From positions 1 to 26,246 of the forward strand of contig SOJA01000093.1 of NCBI GenBank assembly GCA_004376975.1: a stretch of DNA of 26,246 nt, given 5' to 3'. This stretch comes from Candidatus Bathyarchaeota archaeon. Lineage in GTDB: Archaea; Thermoproteota; Bathyarchaeia; Bathyarchaeales; UBA233. The position numbers and the translations under genes were made by a program. Positions within the stretch are counted from its first letter, which is position 1. Each line of letters begins with the position of its first letter. Under the pieces are notes generated by a model, which did no database searches, was not told the DNA's origin, and worked only from the letters and a program-made list of their open reading frames with translations. This document shows positions 10,935 through 16,753 of this stretch, in pieces.

Positions 10935-11020
10935 GAGGACTGCTGAAGACGCTATCAAAGCTGTGTTGAGGAGAAAGGAGAGAAGGAAGTTTCCGTGACC
11001 TTCAAGTCTCTCAACGTTTT

Positions 11021-11064
11021 ATGACATACGTCATATTAGTATGACATACGTCATGCTTATATAC
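11021..11064 (+). promoter_or_regulatory. Tandem operator plus TATA box of the Cys-rich HTH gene
   Basis: Two identical copies of ATGACATACGTCAT (11021-11034 and 11041-11054) are spaced exactly 20 bp apart, about two helical turns. The TATA box CTTATATACC (11056-11065) follows immediately. The TATA centre is 25 bp from the ATG at 11085, so the transcript is probably leaderless. The bound regulator would lie on the same DNA face twice and cover the BRE. Confidence 0.8.
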
Positions 11065-11084: not shown

Positions 11085-11492
11085 ATGGGGATTGATCATT
11101 TGATACTTCCGTGTGAGATTGCCGTCAAAGCAGTTGTTCCAGCAATAAAGGCAACCTTAGCAACAGAACTTGTTCAAACATATGGCTTCAAACAGGCCCA
11201 TGCAGCTGAAATCCTGGGAATATCTCAATCGGCAGTGAGCAAATACACCCGACAAGTGAGAGGACACTTGATAGAAATCGGCAATATGGGGGAAATTAAG
11301 CCACTAATAACTGACATGGTAAATCTACTGGTAGACGAAAACCCTAAGAGAACAGAATTTTTAGGACTCTTCTGCCAAACTTGCAGGACAATACGTGAGA
11401 AGGGACTTATGTGCCAATTCTGCAAAAAGACAGATCCAATGATCAAGGCAGGAGTGTGCTATTTCTGCTTACATCCTGAGCCAACTGGATGA
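11085..11492 (+). CDS. HTH transcriptional regulator with C-terminal Cys-rich (3x CxxC) domain
   Basis: 135 residues. Residues about 33-60 form a helix-turn-helix (TYGFKQAHAAEILGISQSAV, then SKYTRQVRG) like archaeal predicted regulators of the COG2522 kind. The C-terminus carries three CxxC pairs (C97/C100, C110/C113, C125/C128), enough for a zinc ribbon or an Fe-S cluster; C10 is an additional cysteine. A Cys-based sensor linked to an HTH suggests response to oxygen, redox state, sulfide or metal. Two operator copies in its own promoter suggest autoregulation. The same sites occur before the molybdopterin enzyme and the rubrerythrin/IscS cluster, so it is the prime candidate to control both. 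Family call is good; the signal sensed is inference. Confidence 0.78.
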   Translation: MGIDHLILPCEIAVKAVVPAIKATLATELVQTYGFKQAHAAEILGISQSAVSKYTRQVRGHLIEIGNMGEIKPLITDMVNLLVDENPKRTEFLGLFCQTCRTIREKGLMCQFCKKTDPMIKAGVCYFCLHPEPTG

Positions 11493-11576
11493 GGACAGAG
11501 AGCGGGCGCTTCTTGCCAACAGCAAGAATAGGTGTTCTGTCTCAAAAACGGTTTTCTAGGAGGGTAACGCATATAT

Positions 11577-11615
11577 ATGACGTATGTCATAACGCTTAAA
11601 TATGACCTATGTCAT
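11577..11615 (+). promoter_or_regulatory. Double operator around the TATA box of the molybdopterin oxidoreductase gene
   Basis: ATGACGTATGTCAT (11577-11590) and ATGACCTATGTCAT (11602-11615) flank the TATA box GCTTAAATAT (11594-11603); the second site shares its first two bases with the TATA box. The arrangement GCTTAAATATGACNTATGTC recurs before the rubrerythrin gene. Binding here should block TBP or polymerase, pointing to repression. Confidence 0.8.
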
Positions 11616-11640
11616 ATTGTCGAAATGAGAGGAAGTAGCA

Positions 11641-12684
11641 ATGCGTAGAAAGAAATCTTTGCTCTTAGGAATATTGTTGATATCAATAGTTGTCCTAGTC
11701 GTTTATGCTGATGTGAAATATTGGACGAAGGAAACGGCGGTTGACACTGCACCGCCAGAACCTGTGGGAACCAAGGAACACCAAGGAAAAACGGAGGTTC
11801 TGACTCAATATGAAACAGAGAACTATTCAAAATCTGCAGAAGCTCCTGAATGGTTTGTCATAGAGGGATTGGTTGAGAACCCTGTAAACCTGACTTATTC
11901 TGAGCTGAAGAATTTTCCAATGCTATCCGAAGTAACTATGCTTCATTGCATAGGTTCTGGAGAAGGCGGAATGAGCGTCACGTATAACTGGACTGGTGTG
12001 CCACTCTTTTACCTGCTAAATATGGCGGGAATCGTGCCAGGCAATTATCGTGAGGTCGTTTTCAACGCGACTGATGGCTTTTCAAGCAGCGTTCTGCTTA
12101 CGACAGCGATGGATCCTACTTCAATTCTAGCTTTAGAAGCAAACGGAACCGACTTGGAACAAGTGTTCGGCTTTGGAGGTGGCTACCGCGTTGTGTTTCC
12201 ATGCAAGTGGGGTTACAAATGGGTGAAGTGGATAGAAAAGATAACCGTTGTTGATTACGATTACAAAGGATATTATGAACAGTACGGATATTCCGACGAG
12301 GCTATTAAGCCAAACTGCACTATGCCTTCAACTAACCCATCGCTTAGAACATTTAATGCAACAAACCCGCAAGAGTACACTGTTCAAGTCTTGAGTAACT
12401 CCTCAATAGAATCCTTCAGTTACGAGTTTGACAAAATGATTTTCAATGTTACAGGAACGGAAGGAAGCAGCGGATACTTCTACGTTACGTTTCCAAAAGA
12501 GTTGTTGGCAAGCCCGTATCTAGTCTATGTAGACGAGAACATAGTGAATTATAGTCAAACCGAAGCAAGTGGCAACGTTTATCTTTATTTCACTTATACA
12601 CACAGCGGACACAAGATTGAAATTGACGGAACACTATTACCCGAAAGTCAAGGTAGCAGTTCGGGAAGGCCAGTTTTCAAATAG
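11641..12684 (+). CDS. Secreted molybdopterin-dependent oxidoreductase (sulfite-oxidase-like fold) with C-terminal beta domain
   Basis: 347 residues. A basic start (MRRKKS) and a hydrophobic helix (7-24) give a signal anchor or signal peptide; the RRKK is not a full Tat motif. Residues about 68-210 match the Oxidored_molyb domain: VIEGLVENPVNLTYSELKNF, the probable molybdenum ligand C103 in MLHCIGSGEG, WTGVPLFYLL, and GYKWVKWIEKI. The usual C-x-G-N context reads CIGSG here, so substrate and activity are uncertain. Residues about 245-335 form a beta-rich domain (FSYEFDKMIFNVTG, FYVTFPKELL, YFTYTHSGHKIEIDG) often found in archaeal secreted proteins. Many N-x-S/T sites suggest glycosylation outside the cell. 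GAGAGGA before the ATG serves as SD. Transcription is probably controlled by the two operators upstream. Confidence 0.82.
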   Translation: MRRKKSLLLGILLISIVVLVVYADVKYWTKETAVDTAPPEPVGTKEHQGKTEVLTQYETENYSKSAEAPEWFVIEGLVENPVNLTYSELKNFPMLSEVTMLHCIGSGEGGMSVTYNWTGVPLFYLLNMAGIVPGNYREVVFNATDGFSSSVLLTTAMDPTSILALEANGTDLEQVFGFGGGYRVVFPCKWGYKWVKWIEKITVVDYDYKGYYEQYGYSDEAIKPNCTMPSTNPSLRTFNATNPQEYTVQVLSNSSIESFSYEFDKMIFNVTGTEGSSGYFYVTFPKELLASPYLVYVDENIVNYSQTEASGNVYLYFTYTHSGHKIEIDGTLLPESQGSSSGRPVFK

Positions 12685-13007: not shown

Positions 13008-13190
13008 CTAGGTGCAAGTCTCATTTTCATGACCTTGTTCTTTTCTCTTTCGCCGATAGCTCTTGGCACATGCTTCACAGCAGAAGATATATTCCCTACC
13101 GTCAATAACAGTGCGATAGGTTGCAAGCTCACATGACTCTGACGGAATTTCTTTTCTGCATAGCTCACATTGGATAAACTTGGCTTTCAT
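13008..13190 (-). CDS. Small Cys-rich metal-binding protein (TRASH/YHS-like)
   Basis: 60 residues with C8, C11, C20, C37, C38, C41 and C59 (ECELCRKEIPSESC, IFCCEACAKSY). The pattern of a CxxC, then a beta hairpin, then FCCxxC and a basic tail resembles TRASH/YHS-type treble-clef metal-binding domains, which handle zinc, copper or iron. The start ATG (13188-13190) overlaps the stop of the IscU gene by 4 bases, so it is translated with the IscU/IscS genes. It may help with metal delivery or scaffold maturation, but this is a guess from position. The family assignment is moderate, since no full motif is available. Confidence 0.6.
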   Translation of the reverse strand: MKAKFIQCELCRKEIPSESCELATYRTVIDGREYIFCCEACAKSYRRKRKEQGHENETCT

Positions 13191-13576
13191 TTTCTCACCT
13201 CTTCGTCCGCGCGCGCGTGTTTTTCATAATCTTCTATTGCTGCGTGCAACGCATCTGCAGCAAGATTAGAGCAGTGCATTTTAACTTTAGGAAGCCCACC
13301 TAACGAGTCTGCCACATCGGAACGACCAATTTTCTTAGCTTCTTCCAATGTTTTTCCCTTGGCCAATTCTGTTATCATACTGCTGGTAGCTATTGCCGCA
13401 CCACAGCCAAAGGTTTTGAACCTGATATCATCTATGCGGTTGCCTTTGACTTTAATGTAAACTGTCATCATATCTCCACAAACAGGATTCCCAACAGTTC
13501 CTACGCCATCGGCATCCGGAATTTCACCCATGTTGTGTGGGTTTCTAAAGTGTTCCATCACTTTTTCGCTGTACAC
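13187..13576 (-). CDS. iscU: Fe-S cluster scaffold protein IscU/NifU-like
   Basis: 129 residues with the three conserved cluster-ligand cysteines in NPVCGD, FGCGAA and KMHCSN, and the Asp after the first Cys that regulates cluster release. It starts EKVMEHFRNPHNMGEI, as usual for the family. The start is GTG at 13574-13576, sharing one base with the TAG of the upstream IscS-like gene, with GGAGTTGAT as SD. It builds [2Fe-2S]/[4Fe-4S] clusters in the cytoplasm for transfer to target proteins. The C-terminal tail (KHARADEEVRK) is encoded partly by a (CG)5 run at 13208-13217, a member of the repeat family. It overlaps the next gene by 4 bases. Confidence 0.93.
   Translation of the reverse strand: MYSEKVMEHFRNPHNMGEIPDADGVGTVGNPVCGDMMTVYIKVKGNRIDDIRFKTFGCGAAIATSSMITELAKGKTLEEAKKIGRSDVADSLGGLPKVKMHCSNLAADALHAAIEDYEKHARADEEVRK
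13208..13217. repeat. (CG)n palindromic run inside the iscU 3' end
   Basis: CGCGCGCGCG in the last codons of iscU (His-Ala-Arg-Ala), in the non-conserved tail. It is the only member of the family lying within an apparently intact coding region. Confidence 0.8.
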
Positions 13577-14766
13577 TATTCCATCAACTCCTTTGGAGTT
13601 AAAGGTGACATTTCTCTCAGTCTTTTGACTATATCGGGCATTATCCTTATCACATAGTCTACTTCCTCTTCAGTATTTTGCTTGCCTAGTGTAAACAATA
13701 ATGAACCATGAGCCTCTTCATGTTTTAACCCGATAGCTTTTAGCACATGAGAAGGTTCTAATGTTTTTGCAGTGCAAGCTGAACCTGAGGATGCTGCGAT
13801 TCCTTTCATGTCCAAGTCCAGCAATATTGACTCGCCTTCGATGAAGCTATATCTTACCGCAGTATTGTTAGGTAACCGTTTGGATGGATGTCCATTCAAA
13901 TATGAATGCGGGATAGGGTCAAGTAAGCCTTTGATGAGTCTGTCTCTCAGTTTCTTCAGCCGTTCACTTTCATTGGACATTTCTTCTTTTGCTATCTCTG
14001 CAGCCTTTCCGAACCCTACTATGCCGGGAAGATTTTCAGTTCCCGATCTTAAGCCTCGTTCTTGCCCTCCCCCGTGAATTAAAGGTTCCAATCGTATACC
14101 CTTTTTTATGTAAAGCGCACCTACACCTTTCGGTCCATACATATCGTTGGAAGAAATAGTGAGCAAATCTATGCCCTCAGCGTTTACATCTATTGGAACC
14201 TGCCCATTTGCAGCTGCTGCATCAACATGCAAGTAGGCTTTTTTCCTATGTACTATTTGACTAATCTCTTTTATAGGCTGAATTGTGCCGATTTCGCCAT
14301 TTGCATACATAATAGAAACCAAGATCGTTTCGCTGGTCAATTCTTCCTCCAGACTTGTGGGGTTCACAAAACCATACTGGTCAACAGGAAGGAAAGTAAC
14401 CTTGAATCCATGTGTCATTAGGAATTTACACGGATTAAGAACTGACATGTGTTCTATACTTGAAGTTATTATGTGTCTTCCCTGTTGTTGGTTACGGTGA
14501 GCGACCCCTTTGATTGCCATATTGTTGCTTTCGGTTGCACCTGAAGTAAAAATCAGTGATTCTTTGCTTTTGGCATTAATTAATTTCGCAACTTTTGTTC
14601 TCGCCTCTTCTAAGGCTTGTCTTGTCTCTTGACCAAACGAGTGGACAGATGATGGATTACCACAGAGTGACTCCATATAAGGCGACATAGTCTCTATCAC
14701 GCGAGCATCAACAGGTCTCCCAGACGTATGATCCATATAGATACGTTTCGCTCTTGACATTCTCAT
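13576..14766 (-). CDS. iscS: IscS/NifS-like protein lacking the PLP-binding lysine
   Basis: 396 residues with the class V aminotransferase fold: TSGATESNN (74-82), the His of SIEHMSVL (H106) that stacks on [13 protein letters not shown] (180-189), the flexible loop Cys in SSGSACTAK (C331) and [14 protein letters not shown]. In cysteine desulfurases the Schiff-base Lys sits in S-x-H-K-x-x-G-P-K-G. Here the segment reads [10 protein letters not shown], with N207 and D208 replacing His-Lys. The Gln that contacts the PLP oxygen (D-A-x-Q) is Ala (A185). I recall that Archaeoglobus fulgidus IscS also has Asp at this position (D199) and regains activity when it is changed to Lys. So this protein probably does not desulfurate cysteine conventionally, but may still hold C331 as a sulfur or cluster ligand for IscU. 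Tightly linked to iscU, dsrE-like and tusA-like genes. Confidence 0.9.
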
Positions 14767-14770
14767 TCAC

Positions 14771-15139
14771 TCAAAAACATAGAATTGCGTCAACTTCTAG
14801 CGCCAAATCATTTAACGTTGCAGCACCAACAACTTTAGCTTCCAGTATGAAGTCTCCGCGGGAAAGCCCTAACAGTTGTGTGCTTTGTTCACAGACAAGT
14901 AGTTTTACCCCAGATCTTGTGGCGTGGTCTATTACCTCTTTGAGTGACGGGAAGTTGCCCAGTTTGATCTTTTCTGCTTCTCCTTTTTTGACTACAGTGA
15001 CGCCCTTTATCAGGAAATAGATGGTTGCATCTATGTTCATCATCGCTGCTGTAGTGGCTAAAACAAATGGCGCATAAGTGCGTTCTGGCGTGTCAACTCC
15101 GCTTGTTTGCACGTACAGTATCCTTTTTTTCTGCGACAT
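14771..15139 (-). CDS. DsrE/DsrF-like sulfur-relay protein
   Basis: 122 residues with the DsrE fold: a first strand KKRILYVQTSG, a small-residue helix PFVLATTAAMM, and FLIKGVTVVKKGE. C83 in KLLVCEQST is at the position of the persulfide-carrying cysteine of DsrE/TusD proteins. A further Cys sits two residues from the C-terminus (C121). Such proteins accept sulfane sulfur, commonly from TusA, and pass it on. The stop lies 4 bases from the IscS-like start and the upstream TusA-like gene ends 21 bases away, so the three are co-transcribed. A role in feeding sulfur to IscS C331 or IscU is inference. Confidence 0.85.
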   Translation of the reverse strand: MSQKKRILYVQTSGVDTPERTYAPFVLATTAAMMNIDATIYFLIKGVTVVKKGEAEKIKLGNFPSLKEVIDHATRSGVKLLVCEQSTQLLGLSRGDFILEAKVVGAATLNDLALEVDAILCF

Positions 15140-15160
15140 ACTATACCTCTTTCCTATTGG

Positions 15161-15397
15161 TCACTTCACCTTTTTTATTAATATTCGAACAGTGTTTCCA
15201 TTCTTACTTACGTTTACTATCTCTTGTTCTAAACGCTTTACAAGACTTCGTATGTCCGCTTCTGCGGCTGGATCATCAGCTAAGACTTCCATGATTTCTC
15301 CAATTCTCATGTTATCCAATTCTATTCTTGTTCTAAAGACAGGTTCAGGACAGTATAAACCCAGACAATCTAAAGTCCTGTCAGGTTTAACCATCAT
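15161..15397 (-). CDS. tusA: TusA-like sulfur carrier protein
   Basis: 78 residues with the TusA signature: RTLDCLGLYCPEPVF holds C16 in the CPxP motif, the persulfide carrier, plus C11. The length and the final beta strand (NTVRILIKKV) fit the family. It starts with two consecutive ATGs after GGGAGATATT. TusA proteins shuttle sulfur from a donor (IscS, rhodanese or DsrE) to acceptors for tRNA thiolation, molybdenum cofactor or Fe-S assembly. The gene is the first of the tusA-dsrE-iscS-iscU block; 117 bases separate it from the rubrerythrin gene upstream, with no obvious TATA box between. Confidence 0.9.
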   Translation of the reverse strand: MMVKPDRTLDCLGLYCPEPVFRTRIELDNMRIGEIMEVLADDPAAEADIRSLVKRLEQEIVNVSKNGNTVRILIKKVK

Positions 15398-15514
15398 AAT
15401 ATCTCCCTAAACATAAGTGCACAGGAAAGGGAAATGAAATTCTCTCTTGGTTCTCCAACCTTTGCCATTCATTCACTTCCACCATTTCAATCATGTCCAC
15501 TCTCAATGGACTTA

Positions 15515-16018
15515 CTAGTCTACTCTTTCAAACCTAGATCTAGAAGCATTGCATGTTGGACACGTTTCTGGTGCCTCATTTTCCACAATATGACCGCAAA
15601 CTGTACAGACATAGTACTCAGCAGATCGCTGTGCTATCAAATGATTAAGCGCCTTTTTGTAAAGTCTAGCGTGACCATCTTCCACATCACGGGCTTGGGA
15701 AAATACTAAAGCAGCAGCATCTTCGCCATCTTCTTCGCCTTCTCCTAACATTCTAGGATAATGAATCCCATTAACCGTTGTCTCTGACTGGAAAGCTCTT
15801 TCCAAGTTGGTCTGTGTGTCGTCGACAACCTCAAGCAACGCAAAATGCCGTCTAGAGTGGATACCTTCGGCAGTAGCGACAGCCCTGAACAAGTGTGCTA
15901 TCTGAGGTAAATCCTCTTCTTCAGCCTTCTTCGCAAACATTAGAAGCCTTTGATGGGCTTTCGCTTCCTCGACAAACGCAGTGTGTACATTGTTAGCAGT
16001 CCTCTCTTTCATGCTCAT
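15515..16018 (-). CDS. Rubrerythrin-like protein with C-terminal rubredoxin-type domain
   Basis: 167 residues. Residues 9-130 form a ferritin-like four-helix domain with EEAKAHQRLL, ATAEGIHSRRH and DVEDGHARLYKKAL as di-iron ligand helices. Residues 134-167 carry two CxxC pairs (YVCTVCGHIV, ETCPTCNAS) forming a short rubredoxin-like zinc/iron site. Rubrerythrins reduce hydrogen peroxide in anaerobes using electrons from rubredoxin. A glycine/acid-rich insert (GEGEEDGED, about 92-100) separates helices. The stop of the upstream rubrerythrin gene is 27 bases before this ATG, so both share a transcript. Paralogue of that gene, but clearly diverged. Confidence 0.9.
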   Translation of the reverse strand: MSMKERTANNVHTAFVEEAKAHQRLLMFAKKAEEEDLPQIAHLFRAVATAEGIHSRRHFALLEVVDDTQTNLERAFQSETTVNGIHYPRMLGEGEEDGEDAAALVFSQARDVEDGHARLYKKALNHLIAQRSAEYYVCTVCGHIVENEAPETCPTCNASRSRFERVD

Positions 16019-16045
16019 TTTTCTTCACGTTTGTAGATAGTCACT

Positions 16046-16618
16046 TCAGTAGTTTTCACACCAGACTTCATAGTAGCTTTTTGCGTGTTGGCAAACCGGA
16101 CATTTTTCGGGCGCGTGGCTGCCTTCAAAAACGTAACCGCAATTCCTGCATCTCCACATAGTTGGTGAATCCTTTTTGAAAACCTTACCTTGCTCTACAT
16201 TTGCCAGCAACTTTCGATATCGTCGCTCATGATAATTCTCCACCTTAGCAACCATGCGGAAGGTTCTAGCGGCGTCTTTAAAACCCTCTTCCTCTGCCAC
16301 CTTAGCAAAGCTCGGATATAGGGTTCCCCACTCAAATTTCTCTCCTTCTGCTGCAGCCTTCAAATTTTCCTTTGTTGATCCAATAATGCCTGCAGGATAA
16401 GTAGCTGTGATCTGAACCATTCCACCTTTTAGATGCTTAAAGAAGAGTTCAGCGTGTTCTTTTTCGTTATCAGCCGTTTCTTGGAAAATAGCAGATATCT
16501 GTTCATACCCTTCCTTCTTGGCCACGTTAGCAAAAAAAGTGTATCTGGTTCTGGCTTGTGACTCGCCTACAAATGCTGCCACAAGATTTTTATCGGTTTG
16601 ACTTCCCTTAAATTCCAA
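16046..16618 (-). CDS. rbr: Rubrerythrin (TTG start)
   Basis: 190 residues from a TTG at 16616-16618: MEFKGSQTDKN, as rubrerythrins normally begin. An ATG at 16672 would add 18 residues, but that ATG lies inside the promoter (TATA 16661-16668, operator 16649-16662), upstream of the expected transcript start, so it cannot be right. GGAAGGAGA precedes the TTG at good SD distance. Helices with ESQARTRYTFFA, DNEKEHAELF, and VAEEEGFKDA, KVENYHERRY carry the di-iron ligands. The C-terminal rubredoxin site has WRCRNCGYVF and EKCPVCQHA. It reduces peroxide in the cytoplasm. It is the first gene of the operator-controlled cluster that continues to tusA, dsrE, iscS and iscU. Confidence 0.92.
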   Translation of the reverse strand: MEFKGSQTDKNLVAAFVGESQARTRYTFFANVAKKEGYEQISAIFQETADNEKEHAELFFKHLKGGMVQITATYPAGIIGSTKENLKAAAEGEKFEWGTLYPSFAKVAEEEGFKDAARTFRMVAKVENYHERRYRKLLANVEQGKVFKKDSPTMWRCRNCGYVFEGSHAPEKCPVCQHAKSYYEVWCENY

Positions 16619-16648
16619 TATTATTCTCCTTCCTAAAGCAGTTCGTCT

Positions 16649-16670
16649 ATGACATACGTCATATTTAAGC
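16649..16670 (-). promoter_or_regulatory. Promoter and operator of the rubrerythrin/sulfur cluster
   Basis: On the minus strand GCTTAAATAT (16670-16661) is the TATA box, and ATGACGTATGTCAT (16662-16649) overlaps its end by two bases. This layout is the same as at 11594-11615. The expected transcript start is near 16638, about 20 nt before the TTG start. A bound regulator would block transcription initiation. Confidence 0.8.
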
Positions 16671-16753
16671 ATTACTGGAAGTTCTCCAGCGCGATGATTA
16701 TGAAATCCTACTTTCGCACCGGATCAGCTCTTCATTAACGAAGATATTGCAAA

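Follow-up and report, generated by a model that had tools for sequence, protein, structure and literature searches.

The gene run and its IscS-like protein

Positions 1 to 26,246 of contig SOJA01000093.1 of Candidatus Bathyarchaeota archaeon (assembly GCA_004376975.1), referred to below as the window, hold in the minus-strand interval 16672-13008 a run of two rubrerythrin genes, tusA, dsrE, an iscS-like gene, iscU, and a gene for a 60-aa cysteine-rich protein. The main subject of this work is the product of the iscS-like gene (13576..14766, minus strand; Aminotran_5 in Pfam), hereafter the window IscS, which lacks the pyridoxal phosphate (PLP) lysine. The sulfur genes are tightly packed, with spacings of 21, 4, -1, and -4 bases from tusA through dsrE, iscS, and iscU to the last gene. 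The TusA-like sulfur carrier (15161..15397, minus strand; PF01206, E 1e-21) scores 77 bits against a family cut-off of 28.6 and aligns with E. coli TusA, its CPxP cysteine being Cys16. The DsrE-like carrier (14771..15139, minus strand; PF02635, E 8e-20; PDB match 3mc3) scores 71.6 against 22.7 bits for the DsrE/DsrF family and has the conserved Cys83. The IscU/NifU-N scaffold (13187..13576, minus strand; NifU_N PF01592, E 5e-49) carries Cys33, Asp35, Cys58, and Cys102, and its best PDB match is 4eb5_C, the partner chain from Archaeoglobus fulgidus. The 60-aa protein (13008..13190, minus strand) is TRASH/YHS-like by matches to PF04945 and PF24273, both below their cut-offs, and is a possible metal carrier. 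Coordinates, Pfam matches, and spacing thus confirm the run of TusA-like, DsrE-like, IscU, and cysteine-rich small protein genes that the original prediction, made from the letters of the window, had described. Unlike the E. coli-type isc operon, the run 13008-16672 contains no iscR, iscA, hscBA, or fdx among its genes.

Residues 205-208 of the window IscS read S-S-N-D, so that Asp208 (codon 14143-14145) replaces the PLP lysine and Asn207 the histidine, while the PLP-contacting glutamine is replaced by Ala185 (14212-14214). A third loss, overlooked in the original prediction, affects the substrate-binding arginine, whose position is occupied by Leu357 (13696-13698); we take this position to correspond to R354 of E. 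coli IscS, the binder of the substrate carboxylate. The mobile-loop Cys331 (13774-13776) and the PLP-pocket residues His106 and Asp182 are retained. The S-S-N-D motif, Ala185, and Cys331 all lie in an intact frame, as verified from the reading frame, the coordinates, and the motif. A sequencing error or pseudogene behind Asp208 is ruled out: among the matches listed, the 120 nearest homologues, drawn from 7823 at E<=1e-100 among 8000 scored, have Asp208 and Cys331 in 120/120 cases and the lysine in none. Since the lysine, the glutamine, and the substrate arginine are all lost, the protein is not expected to draw sulfur from cysteine, and its sequence argues against ordinary cysteine desulfurase chemistry.

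The protein falls 0.05 bits short of the NifS model TIGR03402 of NCBIfam (530.7 against 530.75) and 190 bits short of the IscS model TIGR02006 (452.6 against 643.2), and it clears the cut-off of the broad subfamily model NF002806 (315.8 against 304). The names in public sources read cysteine desulfurase or cysteine desulfurase NifS, despite Asp208 and Cys331 in the 120 nearest homologues listed. The closest solved homologue is A. fulgidus IscS 4EB5 (E 7e-152; 228/382 residues identical, 60%), and the proteins of two other Candidatus Bathyarchaeota loci, L024 and L017, are 90% and 89% identical to the window IscS.

Sulfur carriers beside lysine-less IscS

Relatives were sought across 84,980 species, each represented by a single genome. 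The scan yielded 349, and the 80 best became the loci of the survey; 50 of these encode lysine-less and 30 lysine-bearing proteins. The three losses seen in the window go together in this set. Gln185 is lost in 50/50 lysine-less and kept in 30/30 lysine-bearing proteins, Arg357 is lost in 49/50 and kept in 30/30, and His207 is retained in 30/30 lysine-bearing loci, while Cys331 is retained in 80/80. The lysine is replaced by aspartate in 26 and by glutamine in 17 loci, the other seven being single cases. Lysine-less proteins occur in archaea (Bathyarchaeota, Hadesarchaea, Methanosarcinales, Thermoplasmata, and a Lokiarchaeote) and in bacteria (anammox and other Planctomycetes, Chloroflexi, a Firestonebacterium, a Deltaproteobacterium, and a Cloacimonadota bacterium). 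Within 3 kb on the same strand, tusA is found at 37/50 lysine-less against 1/30 lysine-bearing loci, and tusA or dsrE at 41/50 against 1/30; in the lone linked lysine-bearing locus, L025, tusA lies 2988 bases off, next to another class-V paralogue. The 60-aa TRASH/YHS-like gene adjoins 19/50 lysine-less and 0/30 lysine-bearing loci, and the other neighbour families that reach at least four of the 50 lysine-less loci do so in only 4 to 9 loci each.

For a pooled, non-redundant set of 273 sequences, linkage was defined as a same-strand position no more than 1.5 kb away; loci L081-L110 (largely repeats) and 31 of 304 IscS-like open reading frames (ORFs), with identical cores or fewer than 200 core residues, were dropped before counting. 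Among 104 lysine-less IscS, tusA is linked in 82, dsrE in 56, either in 89, and iscU in 94, whereas the 113 intact IscS have tusA in 0, dsrE in 0, and iscU in 49. The difference of 89/104 against 0/113 gives a Fisher p of 1.4e-45, with rows that are non-independent. Gln185 is lost in 103, Arg357 is lost in 103, and Cys331 is kept in all 104 of the lysine-less proteins.

The same pattern recurs in three phylum samples, each represented by its best 30 places only. In the phylum of L012, 96/200 genomes match, and the best places comprise 19 lysine-less loci, three of them duplicating loci of the first 80, and 11 lysine-bearing ones; tusA is present in 18/19 (the 19th begins at a contig end) and 0/11, respectively. 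In the phylum of L045 (103/196 genomes matching; 25 lysine-less and 5 lysine-bearing places), tusA accompanies 22/25 and tusA or dsrE 24/25 lysine-less genes, against 0/5. In the phylum of L043 (219/251 genomes matching), dsrE and tusA follow downstream in 7/9 lysine-less cases, the exceptions being L287, with neither gene, and L290, with only a doubtful overlapping tusA call; 0/22 lysine-bearing genes have tusA or dsrE. Within the 27 archaeal genomes that carry a lysine-less gene, 0/38 lysine-bearing paralogue ORFs are linked. Forty further places, picked by eye, added five lysine-less rows, one of them a repeat (L211 repeats L182), all linked, and in these places lysine-bearing IscS with intact glutamine and arginine had no same-strand tusA or dsrE. 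The linkage survey, set beforehand in the original prediction, thus contradicts random linkage, and a linkage confined to single clades is contradicted by the phylum samples and the same-genome paralogues. The association extends from one cluster to a regularity.

The partner proteins keep their sulfur-handling residues. In lysine-less clusters, Cys16, Asp42, and Asp48 of TusA are each kept in 82/83 cases, and two aspartates are said to assist transfer in E. coli TusA (PMC2854127, excerpts). Cys83 of DsrE is kept in 56/57; C33, D35, and C58 of IscU are present in 94/94 and C102 in 90/90 covering rows, in line with the expectation of an intact IscU partner. The 60-aa protein has Cys 8, 11, 20, 37, and 38 in 27/27 aligned sequences. 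TusA and DsrE have therefore retained their sulfur cysteines and, as far as sequences indicate, these partners are probably competent.

Other departures from the standard active site were observed in the survey. In Bathyarchaeota, L124, L125, and L127-L130 represent a second odd IscS family reading S-S-Y-K (histidine to tyrosine), with glutamine replaced by aspartate and arginine by leucine; these genes often adjoin one for an IscU-like protein, and several of the loci encode a SufS-like protein. In L121, L122, L132, and also L235, the PLP glutamine is replaced by alanine with lysine and arginine retained, and in the first three the PLP histidine and aspartate both read asparagine.

The rows dropped before the first tree was built were ten from Wolbachia that were nearly identical, those with low scores, mostly SufS-like, and a few duplicates. 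In this tree, the lysine-less IscS of archaea (47 rows) and those of bacteria (20 rows) form separate clades, each with a Shimodaira-Hasegawa-like approximate likelihood-ratio test (SH-aLRT) value of 99, and L070 from Cloacimonadota is a third, lone lysine-less case. Both clades also have 99 in a 53-row tree without the catalytic columns. With L070, L271, and the two A. fulgidus copies included, the archaeal group stays on one side of a branch with SH-aLRT 65 and the bacterial group has 99; the 19 archaeal-type rows share the branch of 65 with both A. fulgidus copies, against 99 without A. fulgidus, and the starred branches of the tree no longer force a second origin. A common branch with A. 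fulgidus IscS is thus weakly supported, and the interpretation below does not rest on it. In approximately unbiased (AU) tests, on sets excluding L070 and A. fulgidus, a single origin of the lysine loss has p 0.153 with all columns and p 0.046 without the catalytic columns; its rejection is not firm, being marginal only without the catalytic columns. Gene order differs between the groups: tusA lies upstream of iscS in 62/63 linked archaeal-type clusters and downstream in 18/19 linked bacterial-type ones, with type assigned by identity and L070 and L290 being close calls. With tusA on different sides of iscS, the two groups thus assembled or rearranged the linkage separately. The Cloacimonadota genome G429 holds an archaeal-type SSND run of tusA-dsrE-iscS-iscU (L271) besides its own TAHL copy (L260); L271 groups with Methanosarcinales in the tree and looks like a cross-domain transfer or a binning error.

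A search for a second, lysine-containing desulfurase, as proposed beforehand, found a candidate in most genomes. Of 27 archaeal genomes with a lysine-less gene (from 28 loci of the first 80, L024 being left out), 24 also encode a lysine-bearing IscS- or SufS-like protein; the same holds for 11/12 bacterial genomes. Among the remaining archaea, a SufS-like fragment, truncated by masked bases, occurs in G018, and G007 encodes a distant class-V protein with no loop cysteine aligned. In two bacteria holding a lysine-less IscS, G420 (L274) and G423 (L276), a SufS-like gene lies directly beside tusA, so that cysteine could be the source of the sulfur on TusA there.

A SufS-model search at E<=1e-20 covered 44 genomes (G002, G007, G018, and 41 genomes of the two archaeal phylum samples), and in a control of 14 genomes only M. 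jannaschii was missed. By manual count, 14/44 genomes (G341, G326, G412, G248, G393, G311, G356, G267, G383, G258, G274, G113, G171, and G002) have no match at this threshold beyond the lysine-less gene, absence being weaker evidence in draft genomes. With a model of the whole superfamily, applied to 12 of the 14, nothing else exceeds 101.2 bits, against at least 255 for the lysine-less genes. One locus of G341 encodes a protein identical to 4EB5 at all but one of 382 residues, and this genome is therefore taken as A. fulgidus; it has two lysine-less copies and no other IscS/SufS-level gene. Two regimes are thus observed, one with lysine-less proteins only (Archaeoglobus and others) and one with a lysine-less protein beside a lysine-bearing relative, and the organism of the window probably belongs to the latter. 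The case for the proposed "cysteine-independent" assembly is stronger in Archaeoglobus and 13 other sampled genomes, where no further IscS/SufS-level gene came up; such assembly is not forced in the lineage of the window, because the lysine-bearing relative kept by 24/27 archaea could charge TusA from cysteine.

Rubrerythrins and a local operator

The rubrerythrin genes placed ahead of the sulfur genes in the original prediction agree with Pfam. The distal one (16046..16618, minus strand) scores 292.6 bits with NF045767 against a cut-off of 200 and likely begins at the TTG at 16618, preceded by GGAG; the short one (15515..16018, minus strand; PF02915, PF21349) is separated from tusA by 117 bases, and a common transcript with the tusA run is plausible. 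The rubrerythrin link is local: within the 80 loci, some of them clipped by contig ends, a full-length rubrerythrin within 3 kb upstream was found only in L017.

An operator palindrome, TATGACATACGTCATA, lies at 16648..16663 ahead of the rubrerythrin/sulfur run, reading TATGAC-n4-GTCATA beside a TATA-like box and upstream of the TTG start. The palindrome TATGACnnnnGTCATA has five copies in the window against 0.84 expected (up to two mismatches), and five were reached in 0/100 shuffles. Two of the copies (11020..11055) precede a gene for a small helix-turn-helix (HTH) protein with a cysteine-rich C-terminus (11085..11492, plus strand), and two (11576..11616) surround a TATA-like box before a molybdopterin oxidoreductase gene (11641-12684), whose product is SorA/MsrP-like, well below the NCBIfam cut-offs, and which has the operator in common with the rubrerythrin run. 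The five copies before three genes constitute a small local regulon. The HTH protein, with weak HTH matches below cut-off, is the candidate regulator and could plausibly be a repressor of its own gene; the switching by redox state put forward in the original prediction is a conjecture. The idea of one operator-controlled promoter accordingly holds for the rubrerythrin start and has to be widened to three genes.

Outside the window, L005 has two operator copies ahead of its own tusA-iscS run. Among 128 lysine-less rows scanned, duplicates included, copies with at most one mismatch occur only there, and so the regulon is claimed as local; in the closest relatives, L017 and L024, the operator was not found with fewer than two mismatches. 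Relatives of the 11085 HTH protein are encoded near lysine-less iscS-iscU in L212 (5458-5796), L182, L183, L186, L187, and L211, and others near lysine-bearing iscS elsewhere.

A proposed persulfide relay and known systems

We propose that the window IscS is a former desulfurase turned into a relay and cluster-assembly platform, through which sulfur passes from TusA/DsrE to Cys331 and on to IscU, and we put the probability of this reading at roughly 0.58. It is based on the loss of three catalytic residues, the retention of the sulfur-carrying cysteines, the tight linkage, and the genome taken as A. fulgidus, G341, with no other IscS/SufS-level gene. TusA would receive its sulfur from DsrE, from inorganic sulfane sulfur or sulfide, or from a separate lysine-bearing desulfurase where present; it would then dock on the lysine-less IscS and hand its sulfane sulfur to Cys331 of the mobile loop. 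The loop would swing to IscU and release the sulfur there, and Cys331 may go on coordinating the [2Fe-2S] cluster as it forms, like in the published A. fulgidus case. As the primary source, sulfide or sulfane sulfur may serve, and where SufS is present, cysteine. In the E. coli TusA-IscS crystal, Cys19 of TusA faces the loop Cys328 at about 4 Å (PMC2854127, excerpts), so the reverse step, from TusA to the lysine-less IscS, would need no new geometry. As regards the original prediction, its view that normal desulfurase chemistry is unlikely and that the carrier linkage is non-random has stood, and the passage of sulfur from TusA/DsrE to Cys331 or IscU is favored by the linkage and the retained cysteines, the transfer itself being an interpretation; cysteine independence is the part that is not forced.

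Several observations weigh against the relay. Linkage proves neither transfer nor its direction, and 15/104 lysine-less IscS have neither tusA nor dsrE within reach, three of which (L028, L126, L166) start no more than about 115 bases from a contig end. Linkage is also seen in 4/20 lysine-bearing IscS that lack the glutamine and arginine and, for tusA, in 3/36 SufS-like proteins, so the loss of lysine is not its precondition. The loci were picked by similarity and are phylogenetically clustered, and a tree-based pair test yielded only three independent pairs, too few for significance. In E. coli, TusA and IscU are mutually exclusive on IscS, and a relay would thus need sequential binding; the TusA residues needed for IscS binding there include M24, R31, F58, and R27 (PMC2854127, excerpts), of which, by reading of the alignment, the equivalents of the first three are changed and R27 is kept in the window TusA. 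By analogy, one-at-a-time binding of TusA and IscU might suit a ping-pong relay. Linkage to tusA in L242, L245, L246, and L247, where the IscS is lysine-bearing with glutamine replaced by aspartate and arginine by leucine, and where two loci also have dsrE, indicates that the carriers may follow the loss of substrate binding rather than that of the lysine.

The published view of A. fulgidus, reportedly conveyed by the title of the 2015 paper of Pagnier and colleagues, would limit the window IscS to supplying a cysteine ligand for the cluster on IscU, along with a docking surface, with free sulfide as the source and TusA/DsrE serving elsewhere. We consider this unlikely as the whole explanation, since it leaves unexplained both the linkage of 89/104 against 0/113 and the differently ordered bacterial linkage. 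Its merits are that the view is summarised for A. fulgidus in the accessible part of PMC7585200, that the cluster of the A. fulgidus complex has Cys321 of IscS as a ligand (PMC9769115, in part), and that Methanococcus maripaludis makes iron-sulfur (Fe-S) clusters from sulfide (PMC10500019, in part). Relay and ligand roles are compatible, and the ligand view may be half of the truth. Export of sulfur in the opposite sense, with IscS, TusA, and DsrE serving tRNA thiolation, molybdopterin, or another thio-cofactor and IscU as a passenger, appears improbable: iscU adjoins 94/104 lysine-less IscS with its cluster ligands intact, and among the neighbour families found in at least four of 50 loci no tRNA-thiolation or molybdopterin gene was recognised by eye from the first 60 residues. 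It would fit the role of E. coli TusA in tRNA 2-thiolation (PMC2854127, excerpts) and the operator that the molybdopterin oxidoreductase gene has in common with the sulfur run. Least probable is a slow desulfurase that uses PLP without an internal lysine; in its favor, His106 and Asp182 of the PLP pocket are each kept in 102/104 lysine-less proteins, yet three catalytic residues are lost together and A. fulgidus IscS is reported as inactive (PMC7585200, in part).

The findings bear on where anaerobic archaea obtain the sulfur for their Fe-S clusters, and on a puzzle that A. fulgidus poses, that of a solved IscS-IscU complex with an IscS idle toward cysteine. With the relay as the preferred reading, the near-exclusive linkage names candidate donors and opens the puzzle to reconstitution with already crystallised proteins. 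Many archaeal "cysteine desulfurase" names are unlikely to fit the actual enzyme. SufS homologues were reported in 290/311 methanogen and alkanotroph genomes with SufBC (PMC8351635, seen in part), in a paper whose main text does not contain the word "lysine." A broader claim, possible and on balance somewhat doubtful, is that lysine-less IscS with TusA/DsrE represents a distinct, widespread Fe-S route of archaea, anammox Planctomycetes, and Chloroflexi, in which the chemistry was lost, perhaps repeatedly, leaving a carrier-fed dock; it would be the sole, cysteine-free IscS/SufS-type system of Archaeoglobus, and archaeal desulfurase counts would be inflated. A dead IscS is itself not new, given the A. 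fulgidus precedent, and the tie to sulfur carriers appears to be the new part. The sense that this combination was novel has held up: in the accessible parts of the open-access literature searched, no paper joining lysine-less IscS with TusA/DsrE was recognised, and for A. fulgidus the portions examined do not mention TusA or DsrE.

The nearest known system is A. fulgidus IscS2-IscU (4EB5, 4EB7, 4HVK, and the mutant 4R5F), where, like in the window, aspartate stands for lysine, the glutamine and arginine are lost, and the loop cysteine and adjacent IscU are kept. The 4EB5-like gene of G341 lies in a dsrE-iscS-iscU run and the second copy in a tusA-dsrE-iscS-iscU run, to which the window adds the TRASH protein. 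In sulfur-oxidising organisms such as Metallosphaera cuprina, DsrE and TusA are encoded together as sulfane-sulfur carriers that supply the oxidation pathway, whereas the window pair sits with IscS and IscU. The statement in the original prediction that A. fulgidus IscS has aspartate at the lysine site and is inactive was borne out by the comparison with 4EB5 and by PMC7585200 (in part), which also notes IscS1 of Methanosarcina acetivorans as lysine-less; that gene (MA0808) lies beside iscU1 (MA0807), plus four genes of unknown function. The minimal MIS system (MisS/MisU) resembles the window in having IscS and IscU without the rest of the isc operon, and MisS is treated as a desulfurase in the accessible part of PMC12442378, unlike the window IscS. 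With E. coli IscS-TusA, finally, the proposal has in common the docking and the sulfur exchange with the loop cysteine (PMC2854127, excerpts), and differs in direction: in E. coli, the persulfide is produced from cysteine by IscS and passed on to TusA, whereas in the window sulfur would be expected to pass from TusA to IscS.

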